Source of the DNA: Comamonas thiooxydans
Lineage (GTDB): Bacteria > Pseudomonadota > Gammaproteobacteria > Burkholderiales > Burkholderiaceae_C
Direction: 5' to 3'
Length of the DNA stretch: 64,000 nucleotides
NCBI RefSeq assembly: GCF_002157685.2
Contig: NZ_AP026738.1
Coordinates: 4,154,001-4,218,000, forward strand
Part shown: in pieces, positions 1,362-40,823 of the stretch
How positions within the stretch are numbered: position 1 is the stretch's first letter
How the letters are laid out: the number at the start of each line of letters is the position of its first letter
Notes under the pieces: generated by a model
The model's input: the letters and a program-made list of their open reading frames with translations, nothing else
Databases searched by the model: none
What the model was told of the DNA's origin: nothing
Translations under genes and position numbers: made by a program

Positions 1362-1772
1362 TCAGTCATGCACCCGCCCGCGCAATGCCTTGATGCCGGC
1401 GCGCAGGCTTTTACCCTGCAGGCGCCTTTGCTGCGAGCCCCAGGTCGGCTTGGTGGGCTTGCGCGGGCGCGGCGGCCTGGCAACCATTGCCACCAGCGCA
1501 TTGAGGCGCTGCAGCCCATCCCACAGGTTGTGCTCCTGGGTGCGGTATTTTTGCGCCTTGATGACCACCACCCCATCGGTGGTGATGCGCGAATCGCCCA
1601 AAGCCAGCAAGCGCTGCTGCACATCGGGCGGCAGACGCGAGGCCCGGACATCAAAGCGCAGATGTACGGCGCTGGCCACCTTGTTCACATTCTGGCCGCC
1701 CGGGCCTTGAGCGCGCACGGCGCTCCATTGCACATCGGCCTCGGTCAGCTCGAAGACGGCGGCATTGCTCAC
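1362..1772 (-). CDS. arfB: Ribosome-rescue peptidyl-tRNA hydrolase ArfB (YaeJ)
   Basis: A 136-residue release-factor-like protein. ArfB enters stalled ribosomes that lack a codon in the A site and hydrolyses the peptidyl-tRNA. The catalytic GGQ is at residues 25-27 within RAQGPGGQNVNK, and the C-terminus is a basic tail rich in Arg and Lys, as needed to fill the mRNA channel. There is no codon-recognition domain. The start is a GTG at 1772: GGAGG lies seven bases upstream, and the GTG overlaps the TGA of the preceding hydrolase gene as GTGA, showing translational coupling. A longer in-frame extension to 1874 lies inside that hydrolase gene and is rejected. Confidence 0.9.
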   Translation of the reverse strand: MSNAAVFELTEADVQWSAVRAQGPGGQNVNKVASAVHLRFDVRASRLPPDVQQRLLALGDSRITTDGVVVIKAQKYRTQEHNLWDGLQRLNALVAMVARPPRPRKPTKPTWGSQQRRLQGKSLRAGIKALRGRVHD

Positions 1773-3634: not shown

Positions 3635-3836
3635 CACAATCTCTCCTCTGTTTATGAGTCACCGAGGGCAAGCCTGCAGATCTGTGCAGCGCCTTCGGCC
3701 CTTGGGGATATAACGTTTCAGAGTCCCGTCAGGATGGCACGGTTCCTCAAAAACATTGTGTCCAAATGCACACGAGGCAAAGCTGCAGTGTCCGCTGATC
3801 GACATGAGGTCATGGCAGCCGGCCTAAAATGGTGCA

Positions 3837-5654
3837 ATGAGCTCTGCTGACGCCTCCAAATCCAACAACGCCGCCCCTGAAGCGGTCAAGCCAACCAACT
3901 TCCTGCGCCAGATTATCGAATCGGATCTGGACAAGGGCACTTATGCCGCCCGTCACTGGGGCGGCGCGCCCGGCGATGCCCAGCATCACCAGAGCGGCCA
4001 GGTCGACGAAGCGAAGATCCGCACCCGCTTTCCGCCAGAGCCCAACGGCTATCTGCACGTGGGTCATGCCAAGTCCATCTGCCTGAACTTCGGTCTGGCC
4101 CGCGACTTCGGCGGCGTCTGCCATCTGCGCTTCGACGACACCAATCCCGAAAAGGAAGACCAGGAATATGTGGACGGCATCATCGATGCCGTGCGCTGGT
4201 TGGGCTTCGACTGGAAGGATGTCGACGGACACGAGAACCTCTACTTCGCCAGCAATTACTTCGACTTCATGTACCGCTGTGCGGTCTACCTGATCGAGCA
4301 AGGCCTGGCCTACGTGGACGAGCAGTCGGCCGACGAGATGAAGGCCAACCGCGGCGACTTCACCCGCCCCGGCGTGAACAGCCCTTTCCGCGACCGCTCC
4401 GTGGCCGAAAACCTGCAGCGCTTTGCCGACATGAAGGACGGCAAGCTGGCCGATGGCGCCGCCGTGCTGCGCGCCAAGATCGACATGACCGCGCCCAATA
4501 TCAATCTGCGCGACCCGGCCATCTATCGCGTGCGCCATGCCGAACACCACAACACCGGCAACCAGTGGTGCATCTACCCGATGTATACCTTTGCGCACCC
4601 CATCGAGGATGCCTACGAGCACATCACCCACTCCATCTGCACGCTGGAGTTCGAGGATCAGCGCCCCTTCTATGACTGGCTGCTGAACCATCTGCGCGAA
4701 GGCGGTCTGATCGACGCCCCCCAGCCCCGCCAGTACGAGTTCTCGCGCCTGAACCTGACCTATGTGATCACCAGCAAGCGCAAGCTCAAGCATCTGGTGG
4801 ACAACCAGTTCGTCACCGGCTGGGACGACCCGCGCATGCCCACCGTGGTCGGCCTGCGCCGCCGCGGCTACACGCCTGAGTCCATCCGCAACTTCTGCGA
4901 ACGCATCGGCGTGACCAAGGACTACGCCTGGATCGACTACGGCACGCTGGACGGCTGCCTGCGTGAAGACCTGGAAAACAAGGCCCACCGCGCCATGGTC
5001 GTGCTGGACCCGGTCAAGCTCGAACTCAGCAACTGGGCCGAGGTGTTTGGCAGCGCCGAGCATCTGGAGGACTGCCACCTGCCCGCCCTGCCCCACGCGG
5101 CAGAAGGTAAAACCGTGCCCGAGCGCCGTTTCACCCTTGGCCGCGAAGTGTGGATCGAGCGCGAGGACTTTGCCGAAGTGCCGCCCAAGGGCTACAAGCG
5201 CCTGTTCCCCGGCAACAAGGTCCGCCTCAAGGGCGGCTATGTGATCGAATGCACGGGCGCCGAAAAAGATGCCGATGGCAATGTGACCAAGGTGCTGGCC
5301 ACCGTGGTGCCCGATACCAAGAGCGGCACACCGGGTGCCGACAGCGTCAAGGTCAAGGCCGCCATCACCTGGGTGGGCGTGGCCGATGGCCTGCAGGCCG
5401 AAGTGCGCATGTACGACCGTCTGTTCACCGATCCGCAGCCCGATGCCGGCGGCAAGGATTTCCTGAGCCTGCTGAACCCCGACAGCCTGAAGGTGGTCAC
5501 CGCTTATGTGGAGCCTTCGCTCAAGGCGGCCCAGGCTGACGACAAGTTCCAGTTCGAGCGTTTTGGCTATTTTGTGGCCGACCGCAAGGATCACCGCAGC
5601 GACAAGCCCGTGTTCAACAAGATCACCGGACTCAAGGACAGCTGGGGCAAGTAA
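3837..5654 (+). CDS. glnS: Glutaminyl-tRNA synthetase
   Basis: A 605-residue class I aminoacyl-tRNA synthetase that charges tRNA-Gln with glutamine. The ATP-binding HIGH-type motif is HVGH at residues 74-77 in PPEPNGYLHVGHAKS, and the KMSKS-type loop is ITSKRKL at about 311-317. The catalytic Rossmann fold is followed by the two-barrel anticodon-binding region typical of GlnRS. The protein is somewhat longer than the E. coli enzyme (about 550 residues), with an acidic, low-complexity N-terminus and a few insertions. There is no clear ribosome site before the ATG. A TAAAAT box ends only six bases upstream, so the message may be leaderless. Confidence 0.97.
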   Translation: MSSADASKSNNAAPEAVKPTNFLRQIIESDLDKGTYAARHWGGAPGDAQHHQSGQVDEAKIRTRFPPEPNGYLHVGHAKSICLNFGLARDFGGVCHLRFDDTNPEKEDQEYVDGIIDAVRWLGFDWKDVDGHENLYFASNYFDFMYRCAVYLIEQGLAYVDEQSADEMKANRGDFTRPGVNSPFRDRSVAENLQRFADMKDGKLADGAAVLRAKIDMTAPNINLRDPAIYRVRHAEHHNTGNQWCIYPMYTFAHPIEDAYEHITHSICTLEFEDQRPFYDWLLNHLREGGLIDAPQPRQYEFSRLNLTYVITSKRKLKHLVDNQFVTGWDDPRMPTVVGLRRRGYTPESIRNFCERIGVTKDYAWIDYGTLDGCLREDLENKAHRAMVVLDPVKLELSNWAEVFGSAEHLEDCHLPALPHAAEGKTVPERRFTLGREVWIEREDFAEVPPKGYKRLFPGNKVRLKGGYVIECTGAEKDADGNVTKVLATVVPDTKSGTPGADSVKVKAAITWVGVADGLQAEVRMYDRLFTDPQPDAGGKDFLSLLNPDSLKVVTAYVEPSLKAAQADDKFQFERFGYFVADRKDHRSDKPVFNKITGLKDSWGK

Positions 5655-36656: not shown

Positions 36657-37811
36657 ATGCCTAACCAGCAAGATCGCGATCAGTTTGCCCCGCCCCGCCC
36701 CAAAGGCCGGGCGCGCTCATGGTCGCTCGCCCTGGCCGCGCACGGGTTGCTGATCGCGGCCCTGCTGTGGACGGTGCGCCCCCCCAAAGAAGCCGACGAA
36801 GCCATGGTCGAAGCCGAGGTCTGGAGCAGTTCCGCCCCGGCTTCCGCAGCCGCCGTGACACCGCCGCCTCCCGCCCCGGATCCCACTCCGGAGCCAGCCC
36901 CGGCTCCCGAGCCGCCGCCACCTCCGCCGGAGCCCGTGGTGGCACCGCTGCCTCCTCCTGCGCCAGCCCCCAAGGCTCAGGCCCATGACGACGATCATGA
37001 GGCCGAGATTGCCCTGGCCAAAAAGAAAAAGCAGGAGCAGCTGAAAAAGGAAAAGGCCGAGCAGGAAGCCCGCGAACAACGGGAAAAAGAACGCAAGGAA
37101 AAAGCCGAAAAAGACAAGGCCGATAAGGAAAAGGCCGAAAAAGCGCAGCTGGAAAAGCAAAAGGCCGAGAAGGCTGAAAAAGCGGAAAAGGAACGCAAGG
37201 AAAAGCTCGAGCACGAGAGAAAGGAAAAGGCCGACAAGGCTGCCAAGGACAAGGCCGAGAAGGAAAAAGCGGAAAAGGCTGAGAAAGAAAAAGCCGACAA
37301 AGCCGCCAAGGACAAGGCTGCCAGGGAAAAAGCCGAGAAGGACAAGGCTGAAAAGGAAAAAGCCGCCAAGGAAGCCAAGGAGAAGGCGGCCCGGGACGCC
37401 AAGGATGCCAAGGCAGCCGATGACCGTCGCAAGGCCGAGCTGGCACGCCTGCAAGGGCTGGCCGGCGGATCCGGCGGCAGCGATCAGGCCGGCAGCGGCG
37501 GCAGCCGCACGGGCGGCGCGGGCAGCAGTGCCAGCGGCGGCCCCTCTGCCGGCTACGGTGCCAAGGTGGCCGCGCGCGTCAAGCCCAACATCGTCTATCC
37601 CGACGCCATCAGCGGCAATCCGCGCGCCGAGGTTCGCGTGCGCACGGCACCGGACGGCACCATCACCAGCGCCACGATCTCCAAGTCCAGCGGCAACGCG
37701 GCCTGGGACGAGGCCGTGGTCCGCGCCCTGCACAAGACCGACAAGCTGCCGCGCGATATCGACGGCAAGGTGCCCTCGGATCTGGTTATCGGCTTCAGAC
37801 CTCAGGACTGA
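36657..37811 (+). CDS. tolA: Tol-Pal system protein TolA
   Basis: A 384-residue protein linking the inner and outer membranes. One helix lies near 22-40, followed by a proline-rich stretch (about 65-110), a long charged helix of Lys/Glu/Ala repeats (about 115-265) and a Gly/Ser-rich hinge. The C-terminal TolA/TonB-like domain (from about 300: YGAKVAARVKPNIVYPD, ending RDIDGKVPSDLVIGFRP) binds TolB and Pal or colicins. The chain is longer than in some relatives because of the repeat. A terminator follows directly, so tolB and pal are not in this operon. Confidence 0.92.
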   Translation: MPNQQDRDQFAPPRPKGRARSWSLALAAHGLLIAALLWTVRPPKEADEAMVEAEVWSSSAPASAAAVTPPPPAPDPTPEPAPAPEPPPPPPEPVVAPLPPPAPAPKAQAHDDDHEAEIALAKKKKQEQLKKEKAEQEAREQREKERKEKAEKDKADKEKAEKAQLEKQKAEKAEKAEKERKEKLEHERKEKADKAAKDKAEKEKAEKAEKEKADKAAKDKAAREKAEKDKAEKEKAAKEAKEKAARDAKDAKAADDRRKAELARLQGLAGGSGGSDQAGSGGSRTGGAGSSASGGPSAGYGAKVAARVKPNIVYPDAISGNPRAEVRVRTAPDGTITSATISKSSGNAAWDEAVVRALHKTDKLPRDIDGKVPSDLVIGFRPQD

Positions 37812-37840
37812 CGCAGGACTGCCCCCCGCGCTGCCCCTCA

Positions 37841-37872
37841 AGCCCCGCAGGCATGGCCTGCGGGGCTTTTTT
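37841..37872 (+). terminator. Rho-independent terminator of the tol operon
   Basis: Perfect twelve-base stem AGCCCCGCAGGC/GCCTGCGGGGCT, loop ATG, six T. It follows tolA by about 30 bases. Confidence 0.95.
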
Positions 37873-37953
37873 CCATCTGTGGCCAATCCACAACGCATCG
37901 ATCTGCACGGCTTGCGCCGCCGCCTGCCAGTCCATAGCATGCTTTCCTTTGCC

Positions 37954-37972
37954 GCAATCCACGAAGGATTGC
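37954..37972 (+). promoter_or_regulatory. Hairpin in the leader of the rtcB2-prfH unit
   Basis: Perfect stem GCAATCC/GGATTGC with a five-base loop, 32 bases before the small ORF at 38005. No T tract follows, so it is not a terminator. It may be an operator or an RNA structure. Confidence 0.35.
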
Positions 37973-38004
37973 GCGCCTGTCCCACTCACGCAAAGGAGAG
38001 AGCC

Positions 38005-38046
38005 ATGTCCCAGACGACAAATCCCTTTGCAGTCGTGCACGCCTAA
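38005..38046 (+). CDS. Possible 13-residue leader peptide before rtcB2
   Basis: ATG with an excellent ribosome site (AAAGGAG six bases upstream), followed by 13 codons (MSQTTNPFAVVHA) and TAA. It lies 157 bases before the rtcB2 start on the same strand. The strong ribosome site is better than that of rtcB2 itself, which suggests either a regulatory leader peptide or the remains of a gene. There is no recognised family. Confidence 0.35.
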   Translation: MSQTTNPFAVVHA

Positions 38047-38203
38047 AGCCTTCTAGCGCTTCCCGCCACGCTGCAGACCCTGGCCGACCCATGAAACGAC
38101 ATGGAGTCAGGCTTTGCGCTGCGCGTGAATTCCCGGATGCCTCTCGGCCGAGCATGTCGCGACTGCCCATCGCTGATTTCATGCATTCGACCAAGGGCCA
38201 TTC

Positions 38204-39358
38204 ATGGGCAATTCTTTTTCGGACACCTATATCAAGGTGTTCGCCAACCGCAGCGTCTGGATCGAGGACGCTGCCATCCAGCAACTTCACACCACCGCCG
38301 CCAATCTGGACGGCATCCGCGCCGCCGTGGGTCTTCCCGACCTGCATCCGGGCCGGGGCTATCCCGTTGGCGCGGCCTTTTTCTCGACAGGACGCTTCTA
38401 CCCGGCCCTGGTCGGCGGCGACATAGGCTGCGGCATGTCCCTGTACGCAACCGAGCTGGCCGTGCACAAGACTTCGGGCGCCAGGCTCGAAAAAGCCGTA
38501 GGCAATATCGACGGCCCTCTGCCCCAGGAACTGCTGGACGCAGTGGACATGGAGCAGCTGCAGCAGATCGCGCAGACCAGCGGTGTCGCCGACCTGGCCT
38601 ATCTGCTGCAGAGCCTGGGCACCATAGGCGGCGGCAACCACTTTGCCGAACTGCAGCAGGTCGAGACCCTCTACGAGGAAGGCGCACTCGACAAAAAGCG
38701 CGTGCACCTCATGGTGCACAGCGGCTCGCGCGGTCTTGGCGGCTCCATACTGCGCGAGCATGTGCAGCGCTTCAGCCACGACGGCCTGGCCGCCGGCACC
38801 GAAGCCGCAAGGCAGTACCTGCTGCAGCACGATGCCGCCATTGACTATGCGCAGCTCAACCGCCGCAGCATCGCCCAGCGCCTGCTGCGCGCGATCCGCA
38901 CCCAGGGCGAGGCCGTGCTCGACATCACACACAACCATGTGCTGCCCCACCACTGGCAGGGCCAGGACGGCTTTCTGCACCGCAAGGGCGCCACGCCGGC
39001 AGACCGGGGGCTGGTCGTCATTCCAGGCTCGCGCGGCGACTACAGCTACCTGGTCCGGCCCGTCGCCGGGCGACACGAGGCCCTCGATTCGCTGGCCCAT
39101 GGCGCCGGCCGCAAATGGGCGCGCACAGACTGCGTGGGCCGGCTGCGGCCCCGCTTCACGCTGGACGAGCTGCTGCGCACGCGCTTCGGCAGCGCCGTGG
39201 TCTGCGCCGACCGCGAGCTGGTCTACGAGGAGGCCCCCCAGGCCTACAAGGATGTGGACTCCGTGGTCGCCAGCCTGCAGCAAGCCGGCCTGGTGGAGCT
39301 GGTCGCGCGTCTCAAGCCCCTGCTGACCTACAAGAAGGGAGCCCTGCAATGCTGCTGA
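38204..39358 (+). CDS. rtcB2: RNA-splicing ligase RtcB2
   Basis: A 384-residue GTP- and manganese-dependent RNA ligase that joins 2',3'-cyclic phosphate and 5'-hydroxyl ends. The motif GGDIGCGM holds the metal-binding Cys76, HPGRGYPVG the first His, GGGNHFAEL and HSGSRGLGG further metal ligands, and HGAGRKW the guanylylated His299. It is shorter than E. coli RtcB, and its pairing with prfH marks it as the RtcB2 type. The start is ATG 38204, with AAGGG before it. It overlaps prfH by ten bases, showing coupled translation. Confidence 0.92.
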   Translation: MGNSFSDTYIKVFANRSVWIEDAAIQQLHTTAANLDGIRAAVGLPDLHPGRGYPVGAAFFSTGRFYPALVGGDIGCGMSLYATELAVHKTSGARLEKAVGNIDGPLPQELLDAVDMEQLQQIAQTSGVADLAYLLQSLGTIGGGNHFAELQQVETLYEEGALDKKRVHLMVHSGSRGLGGSILREHVQRFSHDGLAAGTEAARQYLLQHDAAIDYAQLNRRSIAQRLLRAIRTQGEAVLDITHNHVLPHHWQGQDGFLHRKGATPADRGLVVIPGSRGDYSYLVRPVAGRHEALDSLAHGAGRKWARTDCVGRLRPRFTLDELLRTRFGSAVVCADRELVYEEAPQAYKDVDSVVASLQQAGLVELVARLKPLLTYKKGALQCC

Positions 39359-39936
39359 TGCAACTGAGCTCCGCCCACGGCCCCGCCGAGTGCGAATACG
39401 CGCTGCAGCTGACGCTGCGCAAGCTGCTGCAGGCCTGCGCGGCCGAGGATCTGGCGGTCGAGGTGCTGGACGAGTTCCGCACTCCGGCCGGCTACAGGTC
39501 GGTGCTGCTGCGCTGCGAGCGCGAGACGCCAGCGCTGCGCGAATGGCTGGGCACCATCCAGTGGGTCTTCGCCAGCCCCTTCCGACCCCGGCATCCGCGC
39601 AAGAACTGGTTCGTCGCCGTGCAGCGCTGCGAGCCGCCGCGCCAGCTGGCCATGGACGGCGAGATCCAGTTCCAGGCCTGCAAGGCTTCTGGCAAGGGCG
39701 GCCAGCATGTCAACACCACGGACTCGGCCGTCCATGCCCTGCATGTTCCCAGCGGGATTGCCGTCAAGGTCATGAGCGAACGCAGCCAGCATGCCAACAA
39801 GCGGCTGGCACGCGAGCTGCTGGCCATCAAGCTGGCGCAACACAATGCACGCAGCGAGGGGCAGGCCCAGCGCCTGCGCAGTCAGCAGCACTGGGAAGTC
39901 GAGCGCGGTCAGGCCGTCAAGGTCTTCCGCCTGTAG
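39349..39936 (+). CDS. prfH: Release-factor-like protein PrfH
   Basis: A 195-residue homologue of class I release factors without the codon-recognition and N-terminal domains. The GGQ is at residues 117-119 in ASGKGGQHVNTTDSAVHA; the SERSQHANKRLA and LAIKLAQ stretch fits the release-factor fold. PrfH releases the nascent chain from ribosomes cut in the decoding centre so that RtcB2 can seal the 16S rRNA. A second Met at 39358 is an alternative start. It is the last gene of a two-gene operon. Confidence 0.92.
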   Translation: MLLMQLSSAHGPAECEYALQLTLRKLLQACAAEDLAVEVLDEFRTPAGYRSVLLRCERETPALREWLGTIQWVFASPFRPRHPRKNWFVAVQRCEPPRQLAMDGEIQFQACKASGKGGQHVNTTDSAVHALHVPSGIAVKVMSERSQHANKRLARELLAIKLAQHNARSEGQAQRLRSQQHWEVERGQAVKVFRL

Positions 39937-40064
39937 CCGTCCCGGAACGACATTGCCGCCCTCCCCCGAACACAGGGGTGGCGACAATGTCGCAGCGGCC
40001 CTCCGGGGTGCTGCTCGGCAGCCTGTGGCTGGGCCTGCATCCCTTGCTGCTAAGGCCCGGCCAC

Positions 40065-40823
40065 TCAGAAACACAGGTAGCCCCCCAGGGCCAGCAGACT
40101 GAGCATCAGCAGCTTCCGGAAAAGCTCGGGCGAGAGCTTTTCACGCAGCAGCTCGCCCCAGCGCATGCCGGCCAGAGCCGGAATCAGCATCAGGGCCGAA
40201 GCCAGCAGTCCCAGTCCCATCTCCTTCGCCTGCGTGCCCAGGCCTTGGCCCTGCCAGAGCAAACCGGCCCCCAGAGCCAGCGTGGAGGTGGTAAAGCACA
40301 GGCCCATGGCCTGCATGAGTGCGGGACGGGACAGGCCCAGCGACTGCAAAAAGGCCACGGCTGGCACGACAAAGACACCGGTCACCGCCGTGATGGCTCC
40401 CGTCAGCAGGCCGCATACTGCCCCCAGCCAGGCCTGGTGCGGCGCCGGCGTCTGCCAGCGCAGGCCCGACAGCCCCCACAGCGCGTACATCACCAGCGCC
40501 AGGCCCAGCGCCGGCCTGGCTGCGGGCAGACTGCCGACTCCACCCCAGAGGGCCACACCTCCCAGCGTGCCCAGCACAATGCCCAGCTGCATCCAGCCCA
40601 GTCTCTGCAGCAAGGGCCGCAAGCCGGCCACGGGCCGCATCTGCACCAGATTCGTCACCAGCGACGGCAAAAGCAGCAGGGCAGCCGCCTGCGCGGGCGG
40701 CATGAACACCGCCAGCAAGGCCATGGAAACCGTGGGCAGCCCCAGTCCCACCACGCCTTTGACACAACCCGCCAGTCCAAACACGGCAATGGCTGCCGCA
40801 GCCATCCAGCCTTCGTTCCACAT
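40065..40823 (-). CDS. TSUP-family (TauE/SafE) permease
   Basis: A 252-residue membrane protein with about eight helices. The N-terminal GCVKGVVGLGLPTVSMALLAVFMPP motif and the matching repeat TGAITAVTGVFVVPAVAFLQSLG identify the sulfite exporter/TauE family, which exports organic or inorganic sulfur anions. The ATG at 40823 has AAGGA six bases upstream; a TTG at 40829 is an alternative. It is divergent from a LysR-type regulator, which probably controls it. Substrate unknown. Confidence 0.85.
   Translation of the reverse strand: MWNEGWMAAAAIAVFGLAGCVKGVVGLGLPTVSMALLAVFMPPAQAAALLLLPSLVTNLVQMRPVAGLRPLLQRLGWMQLGIVLGTLGGVALWGGVGSLPAARPALGLALVMYALWGLSGLRWQTPAPHQAWLGAVCGLLTGAITAVTGVFVVPAVAFLQSLGLSRPALMQAMGLCFTTSTLALGAGLLWQGQGLGTQAKEMGLGLLASALMLIPALAGMRWGELLREKLSPELFRKLLMLSLLALGGYLCF

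Follow-up and report, generated by a model that had tools for sequence, protein, structure and literature searches.

In Escherichia coli, the release factor homolog PrfH carries out release and the RNA ligase RtcB2 reseals cut 16S rRNA (PMC9223846), and the pair guards the cell against colicin E3 but not against the tRNA-cutting colicins E5 or D (PMC9223846). A second set of papers deals with Pseudomonas aeruginosa, where a 13-amino acid leader, PA5471.1, controls PA5471 (ArmZ, described as 'RtcB-like') and PA5470 (prfH) (PMC12057347, PMC13041342, PMC3516279). This leader is induced by ribosome-targeting drugs, and a four-segment transcription-attenuation model has been given for it (PMC13041342). 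Leader regulation of an anti-repressor has been called apparently unique to MexXY (PMC12057347), and a truncated homolog in E. coli K-12 was reported to be inducible by a translation-interfering agent (PMC3516279). Here we describe an rtcB2-prfH operon of Comamonas thiooxydans and the leader in front of it, both located in a stretch of 64,000 nucleotides (G000:C1:4154001-4218000, hereafter the window) of a 5.91 Mb genome assembled as a single contig.

An original prediction, made from the letters of the window, had recognized a ribosome-repair module here, with rtcB2 at 38204-39358 and prfH at 39349-39936 (window positions; all features are on the + strand unless noted), and had drawn attention to the tol genes beside it. 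The RtcB2-PrfH module itself is already well known, and its published role against colicin E3 is as the prediction put it (PMC9223846). More informative than the tol adjacency is a conserved leader at 37990-38170, which the prediction did not mention. We consider it likely that a PA5471.1-type attenuator, built on a leader peptide, controls this RtcB2-PrfH rescue-and-repair operon and that such operons of Pseudomonadota generally share the arrangement.

A short upstream ORF precedes rtcB2

When the regions upstream of rtcB2 were aligned, an open reading frame (ORF) of 13 codons, MSQTTNPFAVVHA (38005-38046), was noticed as unexpectedly conserved. It lies at position -199 from rtcB2 and has a strong Shine-Dalgarno (SD) sequence, AAAGGAG; together with the conservation, this SD suggests that the upstream ORF (uORF) of the window is translated. 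In one genome of the same genus, G003, the leader ORF is MSHSTTPFAAVTA, although the operon lies elsewhere in that genome and its RtcB2 is only 76% identical.

Overlapping sets of 61, 299, 300, and 398 genomes were searched and a named collection was scanned, giving 121 loci, 120 of them with full upstream sequence. The 80 named loci, the best 80 of 488 confirmed stretches, lean toward close relatives, and records near the window's own genome may be absent among them. Some of them are the same genomes as unnamed loci (L141 and L063, for example), and it is because of such duplicates that the count of 74 loci after removal of near-copies matters. Two candidates were left out: G006, whose contig begins at rtcB2, and L107, a degraded fragment with stop codons that scored below the cut-off.

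At 67 of the 74 non-redundant loci (113 of the full 120), rtcB2 has a strong-SD uORF of 11-24 codons at most 350 nt away; uORF length ranges from 12 to 23 codons across loci. The same rule was satisfied on average by 0.72 and at most by 3 of 74 dinucleotide-shuffled sequences (200 rounds), and by one of the 291 other ORFs tested from these contigs. No such uORF was found at 31 loci of other RtcB genes, a control in which a longest-ORF rule set the starts (31 of the 33 loci given) and some starts are in the wrong frame.

Within the uORF, a CTTTGC-type motif is read in one frame at 36 loci and in another at 11, which argues that the RNA rather than the peptide is conserved; 23 of 70 loci lack that form. 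In a wider form, the motif is present at 51 of 70 loci, and in 45 of these 51 its GC falls 23-29 nt from the uORF start, as if measured with a ruler. It is conceivable that the peptide itself acts, as a toxin, a signal, or a nascent-chain arrest peptide, with RNA pairing secondary, and the recurring peptide motifs TLCRS, PFAG, and SLWAGS would fit such a role. However, the reading frame of the shared nucleotides differs between loci (two frames are used), several dissimilar peptides are found at this position, and one of the helices described below covaries, and we regard an acting peptide as very unlikely.

Two groups of leaders keep the uORF but lack the CTTTGC motif at its usual place: those of the SLWAGS type (L094-L097, L170, L173, L180, L185, and L206) and those of the MNKTAEQQKDR / MKKTAWQRQDR type (L099-L101, L142, and L143).

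Complementary segments could form two alternative helices

Four segments can be distinguished in the leader. Segment 1 (GCAAAGG, 37990-37996) overlaps the ribosome-binding site of the uORF and is complementary to the 5' half of segment 2 (CCTTTGC, 38024-38030). The 3' half of segment 2 (GCAGTCGTG, 38029-38037) can form nine pairs with segment 3 (CGCGACTGC, 38158-38166), a helix with a compensatory change in L063. Segment 4 lies on the rtcB2 ribosome-binding site in the compact leaders, and in the window a TGCCCAT (38164-38170) complementary to the rtcB2 start ATGGGCA is a possible sequestering strand. As judged from the sequences, helices 1:2 and 2:3 would be mutually exclusive pairings, as in an attenuator of the PA5471.1 type. 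RNAalifold gave almost no consensus on the compact set, as expected if the two helices would exclude each other.

Over 70 loci, complementarity exceeded that of dinucleotide shuffles with z-scores of 16.5 for 1:2, 12.1 for 2:3, and 5.3 for 3:4, and 40, 29, and 10 loci, respectively, were above their own 95th percentile of helix score. For 3:4, a partition function gave z 6.5, with 23 of the 70 loci above their own 90th percentile. Segment 3, sought within 130 nt of rtcB2 with helices of five pairs accepted, was found at 49 of the 51 motif-bearing loci; its median position relative to the start of rtcB2 is -48.

Covariation of helix 2:3 was assessed in 34 compact leaders, a set from which three of 37 (L130, L157, and L185) had been dropped with unrecognizable segments and for which the test structure was taken from a single row (L125), both of which favor the structure tested. 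In this set, 92.9% of cells were paired, against 18-49% in slid registers, and 5 of 7 pairs had changed on both sides, in 15 cells. None of 500 shuffles reached the covariation score; the number of doubly changed pairs was matched by 1 of 500 and the number of pair types by 34 of 500. The 2:3 score of the window itself (23) is above those of all 40 of its shuffles (at most 20), and in G003 the helix is kept by a compensatory change (GCAGCCG with CGGCTGC). Helix 1:2 was paired in 91.8% of cells in the compact set and in 95.5% in the motif-selected set, where its covariation was weak; it has little room to vary because it overlaps the SD.

The leader accompanies most of the rtcB2 operons examined

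A covariance model of the uORF part of the leader (R1) was built from 42 sequences, the window included. This training set (A3) is the 42 of 70 leaders that were picked for holding the motif, and it cannot serve to test how frequent the motif is. R1 matched the window leader, itself in the training set, with an E-value of 4.6e-12. It matched all ten RtcB2-bearing relatives, some of which are also in the training set, with E-values of at most 5.2e-11; nine of these matches lie just upstream of rtcB2, and that of G006 lies at a contig end behind tolA. The best match in 51 genomes without RtcB2 was at 1.1e-4. In 396 genomes of the phylum there were eight matches (E at most 1.1e-10), seven just upstream of rtcB2 plus that of G006. 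Matches at G764:C1 (5.9e-7) and G972:C4 (5.3e-6) were considered as extra leaders and rejected, as they stand at the starts of coding ORFs and were judged to be chance; among matches above about 1e-4, only that of G016 was looked at. No Rfam family reached its gathering score in seven leader loci (52,535 bases), and the 701 bases of the window leader region gave 12 weak matches, all well under the gathering score.

The same leader was seen by eye in E. coli ATCC 11775 (NZ_CP033092.2), at a place where no gene is annotated: the uORF is MTNPLSMTLCRPFQD, and the pairs are CTGCAAGGAG/CTCTTTGCAG, GCAGAC/GTCTGC, and GCCATTTCC/GGAATGG. In P. aeruginosa PA7 (L190), the uORF is MIQFSTLCRLRLA, which has the Q3 and F4 reported for PA5471.1 (PMC13041342). 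From these sequences, the leader seems to belong to rtcB2-prfH operons at large, and the link to the MexXY pump looks like a special use of it.

As separate observations on these two species, armZ is whole in PA7 (L190, ~3727-5600) and the prfH behind it appears truncated, with no prfH match. Of 5426 complete E. coli genomes, 2650 match a Klebsiella rtcB2 query at one place over 80% or more of its length and 5357 have some match; the partial matches agree with a reported deletion, about 1 kb long, in K-12 and other strains (PMC1586002).

The operon encodes RtcB2 and PrfH

RtcB2 of the window (384 amino acids) scored 486.4 bits against the NCBIfam profile TIGR03073 (release_rtcB; cut-off 271.8) and 492.4 bits against NF007153 (cut-off 407). 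PrfH (195 amino acids, peptide chain release factor H) scored 220.2 bits against TIGR03072 (release_prfH; cut-off 166.65), and its nearest chain in the Protein Data Bank is 7sa4, a release factor H (E 1.8e-46). With the conserved residues, these matches bear out the identification of an RtcB2-PrfH ribosome-repair module. The catalytic marks named in the original prediction, Cys76 and His299 in RtcB2 and GGQ at 117-119 in PrfH, are all in place. Residues D73, C76, N145, H146, H172, H243, and H299 are present in the window RtcB2 and do not vary among the 16 RtcB2 proteins that were aligned; we take them to be the Asp/Cys/His metal site and the GMP-accepting His of RtcB. On this sequence basis, the protein is predicted to be a 16S rRNA ligase. 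The two genes lie on the same strand, rtcB2 directly 5' of prfH, and overlap by exactly ten bases, as the prediction had it; such an overlap suggests translational coupling.

The ligase also groups with RtcB2 and not with other RtcB proteins. RtcB2 matches above the cut-off scored 436-628 bits with one outlier at 281, whereas the listed matches below it scored at most 164 bits. In a tree of 37 RtcB sequences, 23 RtcB2 rows form a single branch apart from 14 other RtcB rows. Support for this branch is moderate (86/73; recovered in 85% of 200 bootstrap trees); one control row of this tree (L024) is bad and overlong, and a usable ORF was lacking for 3 of the 17 control loci.

The genome of the window has a second RtcB-type gene, in two pieces about 45.5 kb apart (G000:C1:3078294-3079364 and 3124908-3125120, both on the - strand; L001, L004, L220, and L221). 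In the congener G019 (L222), the second RtcB-type gene matches in one place. At one end of the interval between the pieces, a helicase-like gene and UmuDC-like genes were seen by eye, and a genomic island may have landed in the gene. At window positions 1662-1769 on the - strand, the PrfH profile matches once more, weakly and under its cut-off (24.6 bits), in an open frame of 187 codons that is probably an ArfB-like rescue factor.

The tol genes are probably an incidental neighbor

The operon had been placed directly behind the tol operon. This is right in that ybgC, tolQ, tolR, and tolA lie upstream of rtcB2. However, tolB is found at 1.90 Mb (G000:C1:1902805-1904007, L267), 2.3 Mb from tolQRA; the tol operon is split in this genome. 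Moreover, a terminator-like site (37840-37868), with a stem of 13 pairs, a loop of 3, and a T tract, lies 3' of tolA between the two units; it is a match to the consensus, and a consensus scan of 2.7 kb gave four sites of this kind, where shuffled sequence gave 1.6. Downstream of it, a weak candidate promoter (TTGCGC, 17 nt, TAGCAT; 37912-37940), largely kept in loci at the tol site, may be read from the alignment; the same scan reported no promoter-like site. The idea that rtcB2-prfH is a member of the tol operon was rejected on the terminator-like site and on the lack of the window's tol genes at 79 of the 80 named loci.

RtcB2 was above the cut-off in 10 of 61 genomes, that of the window included, and among 28 genomes searched for PrfH, the same ten and no others had PrfH above the cut-off. 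The tol adjacency recurs in nine of these ten genomes of the genus and thus is not unique to the strain. In eight, rtcB2 was seen directly behind tolA. In the ninth, G006, one contig carries the leader immediately after tolA and another opens with rtcB2, and we infer that the two are adjacent across the contig break. In the tenth, G003, the operon is found at a different place, again behind a leader of this kind.

Among 18 congeners without RtcB2, the same tauE and lysR genes come next after tolA in four (G034, G004, G008, and G032) and a trhP-like gene does so in two (G026 and G010); none of these was seen within 1.5 kb in the other 12. At seven loci without the cassette, homology to window positions 37700-40200 ends no more than about five bases from the end of tolA, resuming near the far end in L083, which indicates that the cassette site is empty in some other species.

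These data bear on the suggestion that the adjacency is functional, with the entry machinery and repair co-regulated. Its recurrence in nine of ten genomes (one of them inferred) and in one Delftia record speaks for such a link. Nevertheless, that Delftia record is the only one of the 80 named loci at which tol genes flank rtcB2 (4 kb of flank requested), a terminator-like site separates the units, tolB is elsewhere, G003 has operon and leader at another site, and tauE and lysR take the place after tolA in four congeners. We therefore regard a functional tol link as very unlikely, and the tol neighborhood of the module is probably incidental.

Discussion

The leader of the window is probably a widened form of the known attenuator, and a switch can be proposed from its segments. 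The short uORF with its strong SD would be translated constantly. At rest, segment 1 would pair with segment 2, or running ribosomes would cover segment 2, and the free segment 3 would hold the rtcB2 start region shut or stop transcription. Healthy ribosomes would run through the uORF. If a ribosome initiated and then came to a stop a few codons into the uORF, it would instead cover segment 1 and free segment 2, which would then pair with segment 3 and allow rtcB2-prfH to be expressed; PrfH would release the stuck peptide and RtcB2 would reseal the cut 16S rRNA. Ribosomes cut by colicin E3 have been described as initiating at about 75% of the normal level and then halting almost completely after a few codons (PMC2615495). 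Such a ribosome would park over segment 1 and spare segment 2, a position expected to allow helix 2:3, and E3-type damage may thus be the natural trigger.

Several observations weigh against this switch. The uORF rule fails at 7 of 74 loci (L095, L103, L137, L138, L139, L144, and L198), each of which has a weaker or more distant candidate uORF, and 19 of 70 uORFs lack the segment 2 motif even in its wider form. R1 missed 3 of the 11 RtcB2 genomes in the phylum sample (G740, G664, and G941). Helix 1:2 covaries only modestly, and its score in the window (18) only ties the best of 40 shuffles. On a fixed register, helix 3:4 shows no covariation, and in the window its pairing, by partition function, is no better than in shuffles (5.9 versus 7.9 expected pairs). 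Folded as a whole, the window leader does not stand out (z -1.46), and a simulated early stall leaves its rtcB2 start unopened (0.31 to 0.31). Over the 70 loci, the stall simulation is weak, with a rise of more than 0.05 in 32 and a fall of more than 0.05 in 5; the comparison itself favors a rise, as it sets the best value from three early positions against that of a single late position. Finally, the P. aeruginosa attenuation model is transcriptional and not translational (PMC13041342). In the close relatives L059 and L062, the pairing of TGCCCAT with ATGGGCA is lost.

The output in the window may be translational or transcriptional. It is possible, if somewhat less than an even prospect, that the leader works everywhere by transcription attenuation, intrinsic or Rho-dependent, and that the rtcB2 start is not masked at all. 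The P. aeruginosa model does end in a terminator of segments 3 and 4 (PMC13041342), and the partition function gave masking of the start no support in the window. However, when the + strand of the window was scanned for the consensus, no intrinsic terminator turned up in the interval from the uORF to rtcB2, and the compact leaders have segment 4 on the rtcB2 ribosome-binding site.

As to what the switch senses, we tentatively favor a dedicated self-sensing circuit found across Pseudomonadota, in which a ribosome cut at the decoding center would park on the leader ORF and so turn on its own repair enzymes, although we would stop short of calling it probable. If this is true, an ancestral switch for rRNA repair would have been co-opted later for the induction of MexXY by antibiotics. 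A comparably open case can be made for a general sensor of slowed translation, responding to antibiotics, uncharged tRNA, or weak initiation, with the operon as part of a translation-stress response. Indeed, PA5471.1 of P. aeruginosa responds to many ribosome inhibitors, to loss of suhB and cca, and perhaps to ribosomal protein changes (PMC12057347, PMC13041342, PMC3516279). The products of the E. coli operon, however, are specific, acting on colicin E3 damage and not on that of E5 or D (PMC9223846), although a broad sensor could still stand in front of specific enzymes.

From a biological perspective, a leader common to the genus, E. coli, Pseudomonas, and many others offers a concrete and testable switch for the induction of rtcB2-prfH. 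It also joins two largely separate literatures, on rRNA repair after colicin E3 and on leader-peptide induction of MexXY, and it hints that bacteria may sense injury to their ribosomes by the place where a damaged one stops.

Comparison with known systems

The E. coli RtcB2-PrfH operon, described in ATCC 25922 (PMC9223846), has the same two genes in the same order as the window. It was in the operon of another strain, ATCC 11775, that we saw the uORF and complementary segments; there the neighbors differ, the operon lying behind dinB-yafNOP, and the leader is shorter than that of the window. PA5471.1 resembles the window in having a 13-codon leader before an RtcB2-family gene and a PrfH gene, and the uORF and segments of PA7 fit the others. 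It differs in its known role, which is to induce the MexXY pump by way of an anti-repressor. Three papers on rtcB2-prfH (PMC1586002, PMC9223846, and PMC6514570) do not use the word 'leader' in their main text, and a general rtcB2-prfH leader is apparently unreported in the literature searched, although earlier papers may mention leaders elsewhere.

Housekeeping RtcB, alone or in RtcAB, shares the RtcB family and the catalytic residues with RtcB2 of the window, but it falls on a separate branch and has no such uORF at any of the control loci (31 of 31). In leader-peptide attenuators of the erm and trp types, the position of a ribosome on a short ORF selects between mutually exclusive helices. 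The leader described here is unlike these in that segment 1 is the SD region of the uORF itself, and in that the controlled gene repairs ribosomes.

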